IMG/VR virus record: IMGVR_UViG_3300042400_001904
Coordinates: 1-32,531 of that record
DNA: 32,531 nucleotides
Source of the DNA: a virus
Reading direction: 5' to 3' (one strand)
In this document: positions 2,864 to 21,525 of the stretch, one piece after another
How the letters are laid out: each line of letters begins with the position of its first letter
Numbering within the stretch: the first letter of the stretch is position 1
Position numbers and translations under genes: made by a program
Notes under the pieces: generated by a model
Told to the model about the DNA's origin: nothing
The model's database searches: none
The model's input: the letters and a program-made list of their open reading frames with translations, nothing else

Positions 2864-3054
2864 CGTGCACCGTCCTCTACGCGTACGAGCAACTGCAGCT
2901 CGAGCGCGGCCGCGCGCACCGCGTGCTCGATCGACTCCCACGAGTGCGATTCACCGAGGTGCTCGCGCAGCGCGTCGAGCGCGTTGACCACCTCTGCGTG
3001 TTCCTTCACGCGGTCTGGATTCGCCTTCGTCGGCGTTGCGATTCGCTCAGCCAT
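2860..3054 (-). CDS. small hypothetical protein
   Basis: A 64-residue acidic, helical protein beginning MAERIATPTKANPDRVKEH and ending VRVEDGAR. The pattern of Ala, Leu and Glu (VVNALDALREHLGE, IEHAVRAAALELQLL) suggests two helices packing as a hairpin. The ATG at 3054 overlaps the end of the zinc-ribbon gene and the stop overlaps the next GTG. No function can be inferred beyond membership of the leftward operon. Confidence 0.6.
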   Translation of the reverse strand: MAERIATPTKANPDRVKEHAEVVNALDALREHLGESHSWESIEHAVRAAALELQLLVRVEDGAR

Positions 3055-3451
3055 GACGTGCCTCGCGCTCCAGGCGGCCGGCTCGCTCGACGAGGTCCGC
3101 CGCCGCGGCGTGGTTCCCCTCCGCCTGCTCGAACGCGGCGTAGAGTCGCATCTGCTGCGCGTCACACCGCGGGCACGGCTTGGTCTCAACCGACGTCCCC
3201 GCTGAAGGGCACTCGGCGTAGTGCCCCAGCTTCGCGCGCACAGGAGCCGCGGTCAGCGCGGCCACCTCCGCCTCGAGCTGCGTGGCTTCGTAGATCTTCT
3301 GCGCGCCGGCAACGTGATTGCCGATGCAGTGCTCGTAGTCCGCGTCGCGGCGAAGCGCGCGCGCGCCGCAGCGCGGGCACGACGTCGTGAGCGTCGACGA
3401 CCCGGTGAGCCTGCACGTCTCGCAGGGGCCGATCCAAAGCGCGACGGTCAT
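3047..3451 (-). CDS. double zinc-ribbon protein
   Basis: A 134-residue protein with at least one clear treble-clef or zinc-ribbon pair: CETC near residue 10 with CPRCG near residue 25, and a second CPRCD near residue 95, preceded by an ECP. Between them lies a helical segment with the repeated pattern YEHCIGNHVAGAQ and FEQAEGNHAAAAD, so the protein looks internally duplicated, each half being a ribbon followed by a helix with a GNHxA motif. Such ribbons usually bind nucleic acid or protein partners. The ATG at 3451 overlaps the upstream stop as ATGA. Exact family not recognised. Confidence 0.65.
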   Translation of the reverse strand: MTVALWIGPCETCRLTGSSTLTTSCPRCGARALRRDADYEHCIGNHVAGAQKIYEATQLEAEVAALTAAPVRAKLGHYAECPSAGTSVETKPCPRCDAQQMRLYAAFEQAEGNHAAAADLVERAGRLEREARHG

Positions 3452-3633
3452 CGCGACGCCGCCTTTCGATCACGCAGGCTGGCAGCGACGTCGCGCAGCG
3501 CGGCCGCGAGCGCCAGCGACGCACGTCGAGCGCGCGCGTCGCGCATCACCGCCGCGGCGTGTTGCTGCACCTGGGCCTCGTCCTCGACGGCCAGTGCCGC
3601 GAGCACGAGCGCTTCTTTCGTCGGGCCACACAT
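3448..3633 (-). CDS. small helical hypothetical protein
   Basis: A 61-residue protein rich in Ala, Arg and Val (ALVLAALAVEDEAQVQQHAA), probably two helices. The ATG at 3633 is chosen because it overlaps the preceding stop as TGATG; a GTG three bases upstream is an equally possible start. A lone Cys-Gly-Pro near the N-terminus is not part of a metal site. No family recognised. Confidence 0.5.
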   Translation of the reverse strand: MCGPTKEALVLAALAVEDEAQVQQHAAAVMRDARARRASLALAAALRDVAASLRDRKAASR

Positions 3634-16932: not shown

Positions 16933-16961
16933 CGCTGTCGAGCTCCGAGCTCGGCACGTCG
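16933..16961. repeat. 29-base direct repeat, copy 1
   Basis: An exact 29-base match to 17759-17787 in the same orientation. In the second copy these bases, on the minus strand, hold the GTG start and first residues of a small leftward gene (MPSSELDS). Here the same start is present but the frame diverges at once and no ribosome site precedes it, so this copy looks like a fragment left by duplication or recombination. Confidence 0.6.
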
Positions 16962-17110
16962 CGCGCTGCGCTCAACCCCTCCGTCTGAGCGCAGCGCACG
17001 GCGTTTCGGCGCCACCAGCTGCCAACACCCCGACGCGGACCCCCGCGCCGCTGGGGGCATCACCGAGATCGTGGACGAGACCGACGCACCGCGGAAACGC
17101 GGCGCCCGGC

Positions 17111-17275
17111 ATGTCGGCCCCTCAATCGATCTCGGATGGGATGCGACAGCGGCACTTCTCAACCGTCCTTGCCCAGCGCGCGCTCGTCGCGCGCGTCGAG
17201 CCCTCACCCAATCAGCAGGCTGCACCCGGAGTGCGCGCTGGACACGGACGGCTGATCCACCTGGAGGATCGATGA
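17111..17275 (+). CDS. small hypothetical protein
   Basis: A 54-residue frame starting MSAPQSISDGMRQRHFSTVL and ending AGHGRLIHLEDR. Its stop overlaps the next ATG by four bases (ATGA), the junction used throughout this genome, which is the main reason to call it. A second in-frame ATG lies 30 bases downstream. Neither start has a convincing ribosome site. No family recognised. Confidence 0.4.
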   Translation: MSAPQSISDGMRQRHFSTVLAQRALVARVEPSPNQQAAPGVRAGHGRLIHLEDR

Positions 17276-17469
17276 TCTCGATGTCGTTTCTGTTCTTCAC
17301 GTTCCTCGCCCTGCTCGCGTTGAGCGCCCCGCTGCTGCTCGCCAGGCGAACAGCTCTCCGCGAGCACGAGCAGCTCGAGGCGCGGCGGCGCGATCGTCAG
17401 ACGGCTGGCCTGCCCCGCTCGCGCAGCTGGGTGCCGCGCAACTGGTACAAGGGGCTCGTCAGCGCGTGA
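17272..17469 (+). CDS. single-pass membrane protein
   Basis: A 65-residue protein with GGAGG before the ATG. Residues 4-22 (MSFLFFTFLALLALSAPLLL) form one hydrophobic segment, followed by a charged helix (RRTALREHEQLEARRRDRQ) and an aromatic end (WVPRNWYKG). It looks like an N-in or signal-anchor membrane peptide. It overlaps the downstream Acb2/Tad1-like gene by four bases, so the two are probably co-translated. An upstream in-frame GTG at 17071 would give 132 residues, but that extension has no coding character. Confidence 0.6.
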   Translation: MISMSFLFFTFLALLALSAPLLLARRTALREHEQLEARRRDRQTAGLPRSRSWVPRNWYKGLVSA

Positions 17470-17660
17470 CCGACGAGGGCGAACCGATCCTCAGGTACTT
17501 CGCGTTCGCGCACCTTCCCCTAAAGCTTGCGCATGTCTCGAAGCTCTTTCACGACGTCGCGCACGCCCTCGTGGCGACGGTGCCCGCCAGCGCGGAGCGC
17601 ACAGTCGCGCTGCGAAAGCTGCTCGAGGGGAAGGACGCGGCCGTTCGCGCAGCGATGTAA
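17466..17660 (+). CDS. Acb2/Tad1-like hairpin protein (candidate anti-CBASS/anti-Thoeris sponge)
   Basis: A 64-residue protein from the GTG at 17466. It shows the pattern of a widespread small phage protein: RYFAFAHLPLKLAHVSKLFH, an intervening AHALV helix, and ERTVALRKLLEGKDAAVRA at the C-terminus. From memory, proteins with the H-L-P, V-S-K-x-F and R-K-L-L-E-x-K-D-A-A-V-R signature are annotated as Acb2/Tad1 hairpin-domain proteins. Acb2 and Tad1 bind cyclic (oligo)nucleotide or gcADPR signals and so disarm CBASS and Thoeris defences. The size and predicted two-helix hairpin fit. Binding specificity cannot be read from the sequence. The family match is from recognition, not a search. Confidence 0.65.
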   Translation: MTDEGEPILRYFAFAHLPLKLAHVSKLFHDVAHALVATVPASAERTVALRKLLEGKDAAVRAAM

Positions 17661-17662
17661 CT

Positions 17663-17681
17663 GCTACGCGCTCTGTGCCGA
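17663..17681. repeat. imperfect direct repeat flanking accessory cassette (left copy)
   Basis: GCTACGCGCTCTGTGCCGA here and GCTACGCGCTCGGTGCCGA at 19737-19755 differ at one base of nineteen and have the same orientation. Each covers the stop and last codons of a leftward small gene. Together they bracket the RexAB-like cassette. Confidence 0.5.
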
Positions 17682-17783
17682 CGCGGCCGACGCAACGGCC
17701 AGCGATCCGGCCAGTTCCTCAAGCTCGGCGGGCTCGGCGTCCGCGAGCCTCTCCAGATCGCTGTCGAGCTCCGAGCTCGGCAC
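17664..17783 (-). CDS. small leftward protein, paralogue of 19738-19977
   Basis: A 39-residue acidic frame starting at the GTG at 17783, with GGAGG six bases upstream. It begins MPSSELDSDLERLADAEPAE and ends LAGSLAVASAASAQSA. The end resembles that of the leftward protein at 19738-19977 (AELE, LA-S-A-SL-V and a final AxSA), including at DNA level around the stop. The frame stays open upstream to 17906, so a longer product is possible. It may be a remnant of a duplicated gene. It runs convergent with the sponge-like gene, whose stop is three bases away. Confidence 0.4.
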   Translation of the reverse strand: MPSSELDSDLERLADAEPAELEELAGSLAVASAASAQSA

Positions 17784-17787
17784 GTCG
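17759..17787. repeat. 29-base direct repeat, copy 2
   Basis: Exact copy of 16933-16961. It contains the GTG start and first codons of the leftward small gene at 17664-17783, read on the minus strand. About 830 bases separate the copies, and the interval carries the sponge-like operon. Confidence 0.6.
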
Positions 17788-18116
17788 TGCCTCCGCACCT
17801 CGCTCGAGATCGTCGCTGGCTGGACGGAACGCGAGCACGGGAACGTGGTGGACGGCTCATCAAGCACGGGCGTCGGGGCAGCGTTTGACCAAGTTCTGGA
17901 AGGCACAGGAGCTCGCGCCAGTCGCGCTTCGTGACGTTGTCCGTTCGCGCGGTCGGCAAAGTGCCGTGGAAGAGAAGCGCGTCGAGGCGGTTGTCTCGTC
18001 GCGTCCGTCGAAGTCGCTCACCTTGATTCCAGAACGACAGCCAGACACCACAAACGCGTCGATCGAAGGCTTAAATTTCCAAGAGATTGTCGCGGACGTA
18101 CTCTGTCAAGGAAGAA

Positions 18117-18194: not shown

Positions 18195-19091
18195 ATGCGG
18201 TCACTGCGAGTCGAGTTCTTTCATCTTGACCTCCCCGATAAAGTCGATCCAGTCAAGCTGCTTGAGCGAAAGCGACGATCAGCACTCGATCAACGGCACC
18301 TTGAGATTTCAAGCGGAGCGTGGTGCCGCATCCAAACTGACGGAGGCATCTTCAAGATTACCGTGCTCGCGCGGCCGGAGATTAACCAGCTTCATTTTAT
18401 TGATCTGATGAAAGTTCGCGACAGCGACGACATTCCTCTGCGGGTTCCTCCGGACGACGAGGCAATACCGTTTGATCGAGATGAGGACGATGGAGCCGGG
18501 GACAACACCGGTTTCTGCTTTATTCCATCGCTCAAGCTCGTAGCTGCACAACGAAACTACCATGGCCCCACAGTCGCAACTTACGCCCGACTCGTGCAGC
18601 ACCTTGCGAGAGAGAGCGGTCATATAGACTGCCGGATTCACTACCGACCAGTTCTCAACATGGGACTTGAGGAGGCACTCTCTCGCCTCAGTATCCTGAG
18701 AAACGTCGAGATCGTTGTTGCACCTGACAAGGCGTCCGGCGCAGCAACATCTCTCGCCGGCGTTGCGCAGGATTCACTCAGCATTGTGCCCGATGCCAAG
18801 CGCGTAAGCATCAACATCAGTGCAGATGGAACTCTCACCAAGCGAACCGTTGCCTGGCTGAAACAGGCAATCTCCCTTCGGCGTCAGGAGGCACCAGATC
18901 AACATTCTGTTGAGAACATTATCGTCACGGGCACAGACAAGGACGGCATGCCGTTCCGCGAGTCGCTCGAACGCTTCACCGTGTTTCGGAGGTTCGATTT
19001 CGAGCAACCTTGGCCGCAGTCAAACGACTGGCCCAGGAGATTCGACTCCCTCAAGAGAGCTGTCGTTGACTTCATCTCGAATCGAACATGA
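18195..19091 (+). CDS. RexA-like protein (candidate phage-exclusion sensor)
   Basis: A 298-residue protein with no close family that I can name with certainty, but it resembles lambda RexA (279 residues) in length, order of elements and several short blocks: LEISSGAWCRIQTDGGIFKI early on, NTGFCFIPSLKLVAAQR then GPTVATYARLVQHL in the middle (RexA, from memory, has SFLFVEGDTIGFAR then GPTTSDLTDFL), and later RPVLNMGLEEALSRLSILRN with VEIVVA (RexA: EPLMRG, then a helix and TVKVEA). The C-terminal part has a strand-helix pattern and no enzyme motif. A membrane protein gene follows after seven bases, as rexB follows rexA. The ATG at 18195 is preferred over a TTG at 18159. The gene is less GC-rich than its neighbours and has its own promoter, typical of a transferred cargo gene. 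The similarity is by eye only. Confidence 0.5.
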   Translation: MRSLRVEFFHLDLPDKVDPVKLLERKRRSALDQRHLEISSGAWCRIQTDGGIFKITVLARPEINQLHFIDLMKVRDSDDIPLRVPPDDEAIPFDRDEDDGAGDNTGFCFIPSLKLVAAQRNYHGPTVATYARLVQHLARESGHIDCRIHYRPVLNMGLEEALSRLSILRNVEIVVAPDKASGAATSLAGVAQDSLSIVPDAKRVSINISADGTLTKRTVAWLKQAISLRRQEAPDQHSVENIIVTGTDKDGMPFRESLERFTVFRRFDFEQPWPQSNDWPRRFDSLKRAVVDFISNRT

Positions 19092-19098
19092 CACCAAC

Positions 19099-19695
19099 AT
19101 GAGCTTGGAAGACGACACTTCATCAGAGCGCACGTGGACTACCTGGTCGGTACTCATCGGTATTTTCACAACAGTTCTGACAGCCGGGCTCTCGAACATC
19201 TCCTCTGTGCAGACCAAAGCCGCGTCCCTTCCAAGCTCGATTAAAGAGTTCTTTGGTGCAATCGCAGGTCTTGCTGGCGTGATTGCTGGCTTCATTATCA
19301 CCGCAAAAGCTGTCCTCTTGAGCATCCCAAGCGTCGGTCGAGCAGGCAGGACGGCTCGTCTCGGCAAGCTGAAAGACGTAGTTGCGATGATGCGGGTGAC
19401 AGCGCTCTCGGCGGTGGTCGTTGGATTGGCATCGTGCATGCTCATTCTTTTTAGCGGCTCGCCATCAAATTTGCCGTTCCTGCTCATGCTGTCTATTTGG
19501 CTCGGCGCGTTCACCACCACGACAATCACATTCCTACTATTCATGCACGGCTTCGGACATCTCGCGACCAACATGATGGAAGATCGCCGAACAGACGCGA
19601 CCAGCAAGCATGCTGACGATCGCAGCCAAATGCTCGGCTCCATCACCGAGATCTCGCAACCAAGCGACGACAGCCCTCGCGACGACGCCAACTGA
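19099..19695 (+). CDS. four-pass membrane protein (candidate RexB-like effector)
   Basis: A 198-residue inner-membrane protein with four predicted transmembrane segments at about residues 16-34 (WSVLIGIFTTVLTAGLSNI), 51-75, 94-118 and 125-149. A basic loop between the second and third (VGRAGRTARLGKLK) should face the cytoplasm, and the last 45 residues are polar and acidic. Lambda RexB also has four membrane spans (144 residues) and is thought to form an ion channel that depolarises the cell when RexA senses phage replication. Spacing of seven bases to the RexA-like gene supports a two-gene unit. No sequence identity to RexB is claimed; topology and context are the evidence. It could alternatively belong to another membrane-effector defence type. 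Confidence 0.55.
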   Translation: MSLEDDTSSERTWTTWSVLIGIFTTVLTAGLSNISSVQTKAASLPSSIKEFFGAIAGLAGVIAGFIITAKAVLLSIPSVGRAGRTARLGKLKDVVAMMRVTALSAVVVGLASCMLILFSGSPSNLPFLLMLSIWLGAFTTTTITFLLFMHGFGHLATNMMEDRRTDATSKHADDRSQMLGSITEISQPSDDSPRDDAN

Positions 19696-19736: not shown

Positions 19737-19755
19737 GCTACGCGCTCGGTGCCGA
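19737..19755. repeat. imperfect direct repeat flanking accessory cassette (right copy)
   Basis: Eighteen of nineteen bases match 17663-17681 in the same orientation. It covers the stop and last codons of the leftward gene at 19738-19977. Confidence 0.5.
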
Positions 19756-19977
19756 GGCCAACGACGACACCGCGAGCGATGCTGCGATTGATGACGCCAG
19801 TACTTCGAGTTCGGCGCGCTCTTCGCCGGTGAGCCCCTCGAGCGCGCGGTCGAAGCCCTGCGCGCGGACGGCGCGGTCAGCGTCGCTCAGCTGCCCACGC
19901 TCGGCCTCGAGCTGCGCCACGAGCGCGACGAGGTAGCGGGCGAGCGTGCGAGCAACCTTTGGCGACTGCGGAGCCAT
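19738..19977 (-). CDS. small hypothetical protein, leftward
   Basis: A 79-residue helical protein from the ATG at 19977 (MAPQSPKVARTLARYLVALV); a GTG at 20007 would add ten residues and place the start six bases after the upstream gene's stop. A run rich in Ala, Glu and Leu (FDRALEGLTGEERAELEVLA) leads to a Ser/Ala-rich end resembling that of the leftward frame at 17664-17783. It is convergent with the RexB-like gene. It lies downstream of the ribbon-helix-helix gene, probably in one transcript. Function unknown. Confidence 0.55.
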   Translation of the reverse strand: MAPQSPKVARTLARYLVALVAQLEAERGQLSDADRAVRAQGFDRALEGLTGEERAELEVLASSIAASLAVSSLASAPSA

Positions 19978-20013
19978 CGCACGAACGTACGTCGTTTGTG
20001 AGTACACACCAAG

Positions 20014-20205
20014 TCACTCGCGTGCCCGCTCACGACGAATCTGCTCACGGGCCGCGCGGCGAAGCCAAACGGAGACGTCCTCGCCCACCGCTGCCGCGGC
20101 CTCTTCGATCATCAACTTCTCTTCCGCCGACACCCTGAGGTTCAGCCGCTCGTCGCGAGCCAACGCTGCCTTCGTCGGCTTCTTCGTTTGTTTCGTGGTC
20201 GTCAT
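20014..20205 (-). CDS. ribbon-helix-helix / DUF1778-like DNA-binding protein
   Basis: A 63-residue basic protein. ERLNLRVSAEEKLMIEEAAA followed by VGEDVSVWLRRAAREQIR is the strand-helix-helix pattern of MetJ/Arc-type proteins, close to the DUF1778 antitoxin-like group. It probably binds an operator as a dimer and may repress its own leftward unit. No acetyltransferase toxin, the usual DUF1778 partner, follows, so it is not called a toxin-antitoxin pair. The ATG at 20205 has AGGA upstream at a long spacing. It is divergent from the methyltransferase gene, with 36 bases between. Confidence 0.65.
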   Translation of the reverse strand: MTTTKQTKKPTKAALARDERLNLRVSAEEKLMIEEAAAAVGEDVSVWLRRAAREQIRRERARE

Positions 20206-20241
20206 CGAGCCCGCGATCCTAGCCCCGTTCGCAAGCACCCC

Positions 20242-21525
20242 ATGACAGACAACGTCACCGCAGAACTCGCATCCTGGGTGCCGCTGACGGCGGTGAAGCC
20301 CTGGTCACGCAACCCGCGCAAGAACGACGGAGCCCCCGTCGACGCGGTCGCGAAGAGCATCGAGCGCTTCGGCTTCGTCGCGCCGATCGTGGTCTGGACG
20401 TCGCGCGCGCAGATCGTCGCCGGCCACACGCGCCTCAAGGCCATCGAGAAGCTGCTGCGCGCGGACCGCGCGTTCGTGGCGAAGGGCGCGCCGGGACCGG
20501 GCCTCGTTCCGGTCCGCTGGCACGAGTTCGCCAGCGACGCCGAGGCCGAGGCGTACGCGCTCGCAGACAACGCCCTCGGCGAGCTCGCCGAGTGGGATCT
20601 CTCTGCAGCGCAGGAGCTGCTCGCAAGCCTGCGCAACCAGGACGCCGAGCTCGCGGCGATCGCCGCCGGTGGGTCCTCGTCGCTCGCGACGCTGCTCGAC
20701 GCGCTCGACGAAGCGGACGCGCTGGCGAACGTCGCGAACACCGCCGCGCCCGAGGCGCCGGCGTTGCCCGAAGTCGCGGTCAGCGAACCGGGCATGGTGT
20801 ACGAGCTCGGGCCGCATCGACTGCTGTGCGGCGACTCGACCAACAGCGCCGAGCTCGCGCGCGCCATGGGCGGCGTGCAGGCGGACGCGGTGTTCACCGA
20901 TCCGCCGTACAACGTCGCGTACACGGGCAAGACCAAGAAGGCGCTCAAGATCGAGAACGACGCGATGAACGGTGAGCAATTTCGCTCGTTCCTTGTGGGC
21001 GCGTTCTCGGCGATGCGCTCGGTCGCGAAGCCCGGCGCCGCCATCTACGTTTGCCACGCGGACAGCGAGGGAGAGAACTTCCGCGGCGCGCTGCGCGAGT
21101 CGGGATGGCTGTTCAAGCAGTGCCTCGTGTGGGTGAAGGACCAGTTCGTTCTCGGCCGCCAGGACTACCACTGGCAGCACGAACCGATCCTCTACGGCTG
21201 GGCCGAGGGAGCCGCGCACAAGTGGTGCAGCGACCGAAAGCAGACCACGGTGTGGAACTTCGACCGCCCTCGTCGCAACGCCGAGCACCCGACGATGAAG
21301 CCCGTCGAGCTCGTCGAGTACGCGCTGAGCAACAGCACCGAGCTCGGCGACGTCGTGCTCGATTCCTTCGGCGGCTCCGGCTCGACGTTGCTCGCGGCCG
21401 CGCGCACTGGGCGCAGCGCGCGCCTGGTCGAACTCGATCCGCGCTACTGCGATGTGATTCGCAAGCGCTGGACGGAGTTCGCCATCAACGCGCGCATCGA
21501 TCCAGGCGTCGGCGCGCTGGAGTGA
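20242..21525 (+). CDS. ParB-domain DNA methyltransferase (N6-adenine/N4-cytosine, beta class)
   Basis: A 427-residue fusion. The N-terminal 150 residues are a ParB/sulfiredoxin-type domain: WSRNPRKND, SIERFGFVAPIVVW, IVAGHTRLKAIEKL and ALADNALGELAEWD. The C-terminal part has methyltransferase motif IV as DPPYNVAYTG (about residue 224), then HPTMKPVELVEYAL and the AdoMet-binding motif I DSFGGSGSTLLAAARTG (about 374), with LCGDSTN opening the domain. DPPY preceding the motif I region is the beta-class order, as in CcrM. It probably modifies phage DNA to evade host restriction or marks packaging DNA. The common ParB-MTase architecture in phages lies, as here, just upstream of terminase. No restriction enzyme is adjacent. 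Confidence 0.9.
   Translation: MTDNVTAELASWVPLTAVKPWSRNPRKNDGAPVDAVAKSIERFGFVAPIVVWTSRAQIVAGHTRLKAIEKLLRADRAFVAKGAPGPGLVPVRWHEFASDAEAEAYALADNALGELAEWDLSAAQELLASLRNQDAELAAIAAGGSSSLATLLDALDEADALANVANTAAPEAPALPEVAVSEPGMVYELGPHRLLCGDSTNSAELARAMGGVQADAVFTDPPYNVAYTGKTKKALKIENDAMNGEQFRSFLVGAFSAMRSVAKPGAAIYVCHADSEGENFRGALRESGWLFKQCLVWVKDQFVLGRQDYHWQHEPILYGWAEGAAHKWCSDRKQTTVWNFDRPRRNAEHPTMKPVELVEYALSNSTELGDVVLDSFGGSGSTLLAAARTGRSARLVELDPRYCDVIRKRWTEFAINARIDPGVGALE

Follow-up and report, generated by a model that had tools for sequence, protein, structure and literature searches.

Phages use Acb2 (anti-CBASS 2) and Tad1 (Thoeris anti-defence 1) to sequester the alarm molecules of bacteria. Acb2 is a small protein, encoded by an accessory gene, that forms a hexamer; in each protomer, a short helix at the N-terminus precedes two long helices that run antiparallel. 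Examples are T4 Vs.4 (PDB 7uq2) and Pseudomonas phage p26/gp24 (PDB 8h2j, 8ixz). In T4 Acb2, Y8 is required for binding, as seen with Y8A (PMC12657218, PMC12657230); F82 stacks on the ligand (PMC12657218); and T68M lowers binding (PMC12657230). Pfam places the C-terminal helical hairpin of Tad1 together with Acb2 in PF24729 (Acb2_Tad1_hairpin), and Tad1 also has an N-terminal beta-sheet domain (PMC12043709). Other hairpins of the PF24729 type have no assigned function, such as the DrDrey gp102 family, with its FxYHPP...REKSLALTKLEEAMFWANAAIAR pattern, and a solved relative with six chains (9ptq, or Acb2 homolog 43). Finally, phage RyR proteins (RyDEP), which have a different domain, cleave or sponge the cADPR signals of Thoeris (PMC13232231).

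The window (the whole stretch that was analyzed, 32,531 nucleotides of a virus from IMG/VR) contains an open frame of 64 codons at 17466-17660 (+), with a GTG start and a TAA stop, which encodes a candidate nucleotide-signal sponge with the sequence (V/M)TDEGEPILRYFAFAHLPLKLAHVSKLFHDVAHALVATVPASAERTVALRKLLEGKDAAVRAAM. The position of this frame, its length of 64 residues, and the signatures HLP (residues 16-18), VSKLF (24-28), and RKLLEGKDAAVR (50-61) are all as given in a preliminary description of this DNA. The GC content at its three codon positions (75/42/84%) resembles that of the phage's own genes. Given an alignment with 39 relatives, AlphaFold2 produced a model with a mean pLDDT of 93.8, with a short N-terminal helix at residues 7-12 (PILRYF; 17484..17501) and two long antiparallel helices at residues 19-38 (17520..17579) and 43-63 (17592..17654). 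This is the layout of the Acb2 protomer, and it agrees with the two-helix hairpin that had been predicted from the sequence. A family that certainly belongs to PF24729, modelled in the same way, has helices at residues 3-8, 18-41, and 46-68.

Unlike Acb2, the 64-residue protein does not have a long insertion between the helices, and its second long helix carries an RKLLExKDxxxR block that is invariant in its family and missing from Acb2. Unlike Tad1, it consists of the hairpin only, with no N-terminal beta-sheet domain, and we found no direct match between it and Tad1. It is similar to the PF24729-type hairpins in length and in helix pattern, and both groups share F-x-[Y/F], LA-x(6-8)-LP-x(2)-x-E-[KR]-[ST], and AL-x-K-L-x-E. 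In contrast, TKLEEAMFWANAAIAR of the PF24729-type hairpins is replaced by RKLLEGKDAAVRAAL, and the basic VR of their first long helix is VS in the window's family.

This family (PHROG 1761/5120) is large, very conserved, and found in phages and prophages, and it has no annotation. The 64-residue protein matches PHROG 1761 (E = 5.4e-23), PHROG 5120 (1.6e-14), and PHROG 1454 (7e-4), none of which has an assigned function. Using tblastn, we found relatives in 320 named phage records (best E = 1e-15, 57% identity) and in 26 plasmid records. Chance would not produce such matches, and the ORF is real. There are also relatives at 52 loci in IMG/VR and at 187 confirmed places in GTDB genomes, of which the best 80 were retrieved; the phyla include Proteobacteria, Actinobacteria, Planctomycetes, Cyanobacteria, Acidobacteria, Chloroflexia, and others. 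Most members are stand-alone proteins of 60-70 amino acids. Nine residues (E44, R50, K51, L52, L53, E54, K56, D57, and R61) show zero variation in two alignments. A32, in the first long helix, is likewise invariant among 39 aligned members, and F12, H16, L17, and S25 are nearly so. The position of the gene differs between phages, as expected for accessory anti-defence genes, and its neighbors elsewhere include terminase, portal, tail, maturase, or late genes.

Our main reading, which we consider to be roughly 65% probable, is that the 64-residue protein is a nucleotide-signal sponge, and most likely an oligomeric one. By analogy with Acb2, it would assemble into an oligomer with pockets built from the invariant charged stripe of the last helix and from the F-x-[F/Y]-x-H-L-P segment, and each pocket would hold a second messenger derived from a nucleotide tightly and leave it uncleaved. 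If the sponge is produced during infection, there would be less free signal, and the effectors of CBASS, Thoeris, or a similar system would then stay inactive.

Acb2 and the window's protein can be compared at their pocket positions through a merged alignment, in which residue n of the window's last helix corresponds to residue n+18 of T4 Acb2. In this remote alignment, T4 Acb2 has T68-E72-M75-R79-F82 at the positions of the stripe R50-E54-D57-R61-M64, and all four charged residues of the stripe are invariant in the family. Y8 of T4 Acb2 aligns with F14, which lies within the F12-x-[F/Y]14-x-H16-L17-P18 motif (17499..17519), and 36 of 38 members have F or Y at this position. K26 of PaMx33 Acb2, which we take to be a ligand residue, aligns (again remotely) with S25. 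In other words, the aromatic Y8/F14 is kept, and three of the four mapped ligand positions are changed (T68 to R50, K26 to S25, and F82 to M64). This remote alignment suggests that the family keeps and strongly constrains the pocket positions with a different chemistry. Because most of the mapped positions are changed, the ligand could well be something other than the classic ligand of T4 Acb2.

Some members of the family are associated with RyR domains. The window-type hairpin is fused to an RyR domain in two metagenomic phages (PF02026, E = 1.2e-9 in locus L029, at 2992-3567, and 9e-12 in L050, at 2983-3543), and in a third locus (L296) its gene is directly upstream of an RyR gene. The association is rare, with 3 loci of about 140 for the window-type family. 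The PF24729-type hairpins show it as well, with a fusion in another metagenomic phage (L320, 1201-2001) and genes that adjoin RyR genes at three loci (L096, L140, and L469). That such a rare partner is common to both hairpin families supports a common role in evading nucleotide immune signals, and the fusions are candidate two-domain anti-Thoeris/CBASS proteins. An RyR query found no match within the window. We also inspected the RyR proteins of Erwinia phages Kuerle and Fifi067, Klebsiella pKP-BM327-1.1, and Pectobacterium phage phiA41, and the hairpin was absent from them.

Other fusions were seen. At L035 (2989-3420) and similar loci, the window-type hairpin is joined to a C-terminal crAss001_48 domain (PF21825, E = 3.5e-17). 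In Ochrobactrum phage vB_OspP_OH (L222, 765-1133), the hairpin follows an N-terminal zinc-binding segment that is DnaJ/anti-TRAP-like and resembles a zinc finger. That protein was deposited as an anti-TRAP domain protein, a name that fits its N-terminus only.

More tentatively, PHROG 1761/5120 might be a very widespread clade of sponge hairpins whose strictly conserved R/K/E/D/R pocket has been rewired and captures an immune signal that Acb2 is not known to bind. We propose an ADP-ribose-derived Thoeris signal as an example because of the fusions to RyR domains.

It would also be conceivable that a homolog of the Acb2/Tad1 hairpin has been repurposed, so that the ligand of the stripe is a different metabolite (of phage or host), a nucleic acid, or a protein, and the protein does not sponge an immune signal. 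The pocket residues are unlike those of Acb2, the RKLLExKDxxxR block is more conserved across phyla than would be expected for a protein in an arms race, and the family's members sit in many different modules. We nevertheless consider repurposing to be unlikely: both this family and the PF24729-type hairpins occur fused or next to RyR domains, which act on Thoeris signals, and the 64-residue protein is small, stand-alone, and variably placed, as are the known sponges.

As to the ancestry of the hairpin, sequence comparisons indicate that the 64-residue protein very probably belongs to the Acb2/Tad1 hairpin superfamily, as a divergent branch. A skeptic could argue that its likeness to Acb2 and Tad1 is convergent and that it is a generic two-helix hairpin, with no role to be assigned, as such hairpins are common and several direct comparisons come up empty. 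The protein by itself has no match to PF24729 at E <= 1 or at E <= 10 (the curated gathering cut-off of PF24729 is 27 bits), and direct searches of Pfam, NCBIfam, and PADLOC also found no match for it. When the family was compared directly to T4/PaMx33 Acb2 with hhalign, the probability was 1.6%, which is not significant. A Foldseek search of the PDB with the model did not find Acb2, but this weighs little, because a certain PF24729 protein used as a control was nearly silent too (T4 Acb2, or Vs.4, 7uq2, appeared only at E = 2.0).

Against convergence, when we used hhalign to compare the family to PF24729-type proteins, the probabilities were 93.4% (E = 2.5e-7), 94.1%, and 95.2%, as compared to 1.2% or less for reversed or permuted profiles and 0.6% for an unrelated helical phage domain. 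When the PF24729 alignment was more heterogeneous and contained Acb2 itself, the probability was 78.5%. We also built an HMM from 134 PF24729-type proteins and searched the six-frame translation of 0.9 Mb of sequence around family members: it matched 37 ORFs, and all 37 were members of this hairpin family. Across all frames of the window, its best match was the ORF at 17466-17660 (E = 0.006; the runner-up had E = 0.72). Furthermore, PHROG 1454 is a bridge, as it matches the 64-residue protein, T4 Acb2, and 9ptq. PF24729 was the commonest Pfam match among the relatives in each of two sets, with subthreshold matches in 11 of 39 (best E = 5.4e-4) and 12 of 40 (best E = 3.2e-3). In a structure search of BFVD, the top matches were the family itself, and the named neighbors further down were mostly described as Acb2/Tad1 hairpin domain-containing. 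Overall, convergence seems very improbable.

The PF24729-type proteins are in turn linked to Acb2: DrDrey gp102 matches PF24729 at E = 4.7e-16 and 9ptq at 1.1e-5, and the hhalign probability of the PF24729-type proteins with T4/PaMx33 Acb2 is 94.9%. As judged by these comparisons, the family is linked to T4/PaMx33 Acb2 only through PF24729-type intermediates. In a tree, the family forms its own clade apart from the PF24729-type proteins (support 0.998), although two blocks were merged to make the alignment, which favors this result. In profile searches of the PDB, 9ptq (E = 0.64-0.71) was outranked by a peroxisomal SH3 protein or by phage Gp22, so the match to 9ptq alone is no proof of relationship. 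The lone phmmer match in the PDB for the 64-residue protein was a dihydrolipoyl dehydrogenase, which we attribute to chance.

The preliminary description had called the protein an Acb2/Tad1-type sponge and had looked to a profile search for a family match. Placement in the superfamily holds at the level of the family, from the profile-profile comparisons (93.4-95.2%), the structure neighbors, and the RyR partners, but the single protein does not match PF24729. The label was right in kind, but calling the protein Acb2 or Tad1 would go too far, as the family is a separate clade and its pocket residues differ.

The GTG of the hairpin gene overlaps the stop codon of the preceding gene (GTGA), which is the pattern of translationally coupled genes. 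The preceding gene (17272-17469, +) has GGAGG just 5' of its ATG and encodes a 65-amino-acid protein with one transmembrane segment, and the two genes are likely co-translated. The idea that the 64-residue protein is a lysis or membrane accessory that partners this membrane protein, for instance as a holin partner, draws on the GTGA overlap and on Brevibacterium AGM phages, in which a relative is directly 3' of a holin gene, but we reject it as highly implausible because the membrane neighbor is not conserved (none of the related loci contains a relative of it), and furthermore the gene's neighbors elsewhere are of other kinds, as described above, and neither the sequence nor the AlphaFold2 model of the 64-residue protein contains a membrane segment. 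The 65-amino-acid protein has a subthreshold match to CcmD (E = 0.0014). Two copies of a 32-nucleotide direct repeat (97% identity; 16933-16964 and 17759-17790), which contains CGAGCTCCGAGCTCG, flank this pair of genes.

Further downstream are genes for a 297-amino-acid protein with a weak match to DUF6731 (18198-19091, +) and a 198-amino-acid multi-pass membrane protein (19099-19695, +). Their third-position GC content is 0.59 and 0.65, respectively, as compared to 0.83-0.89 for the phage's genes, and the pair looks like acquired cargo. The 297-amino-acid protein had no relatives in the collections that we searched. The pair had been described as a RexAB-like cassette, and it has the RexA-RexB gene order and roughly the right sizes, but there is no family match and the similarity to lambda RexA and RexB is weak (in pairwise BLAST to RexA, E = 0.14 and 1.7, yet colinear). 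The pair is possibly a RexAB-like exclusion system, going by these sequence features, and the earlier suggestion that a counter-defence gene lies beside a weapon against rival phages is unproven.

Several other features lie nearby. Two minus-strand ORFs (17664-17906 and 19738-20007) have similar C-terminal ends, and this is mirrored by a 49-nucleotide direct repeat with 78% identity (17663-17711 and 19737-19785). The frame at 20014-20238 (-) encodes a 74-amino-acid ribbon-helix-helix protein similar to NikA/TacA (PF21983, E = 8e-7; PF08681, E = 6e-5), which is possibly an antitoxin-type regulator. The gene at 20188-21525 (+) encodes a ParB-like domain and a DNA methyltransferase (phrog_498, E = 1e-139) and is just upstream of genes for a phrog_645 protein and the terminase large subunit.

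Some of these proteins may already be covered by a 2025 preprint, cited in PMC13232231, that deals with the functional diversity of phage sponges. If the sponge reading is true, then an unrecognized counter-defence gene, currently named, for example, hypothetical protein or anti-TRAP, would be present in hundreds of phages and prophages of bacteria as varied as Proteobacteria, Planctomycetes, and Actinobacteria. The Acb2/Tad1 superfamily would also gain a new specificity class, and with the invariant pocket stripe of this family, the question of the ligand can be tested directly with one small protein.
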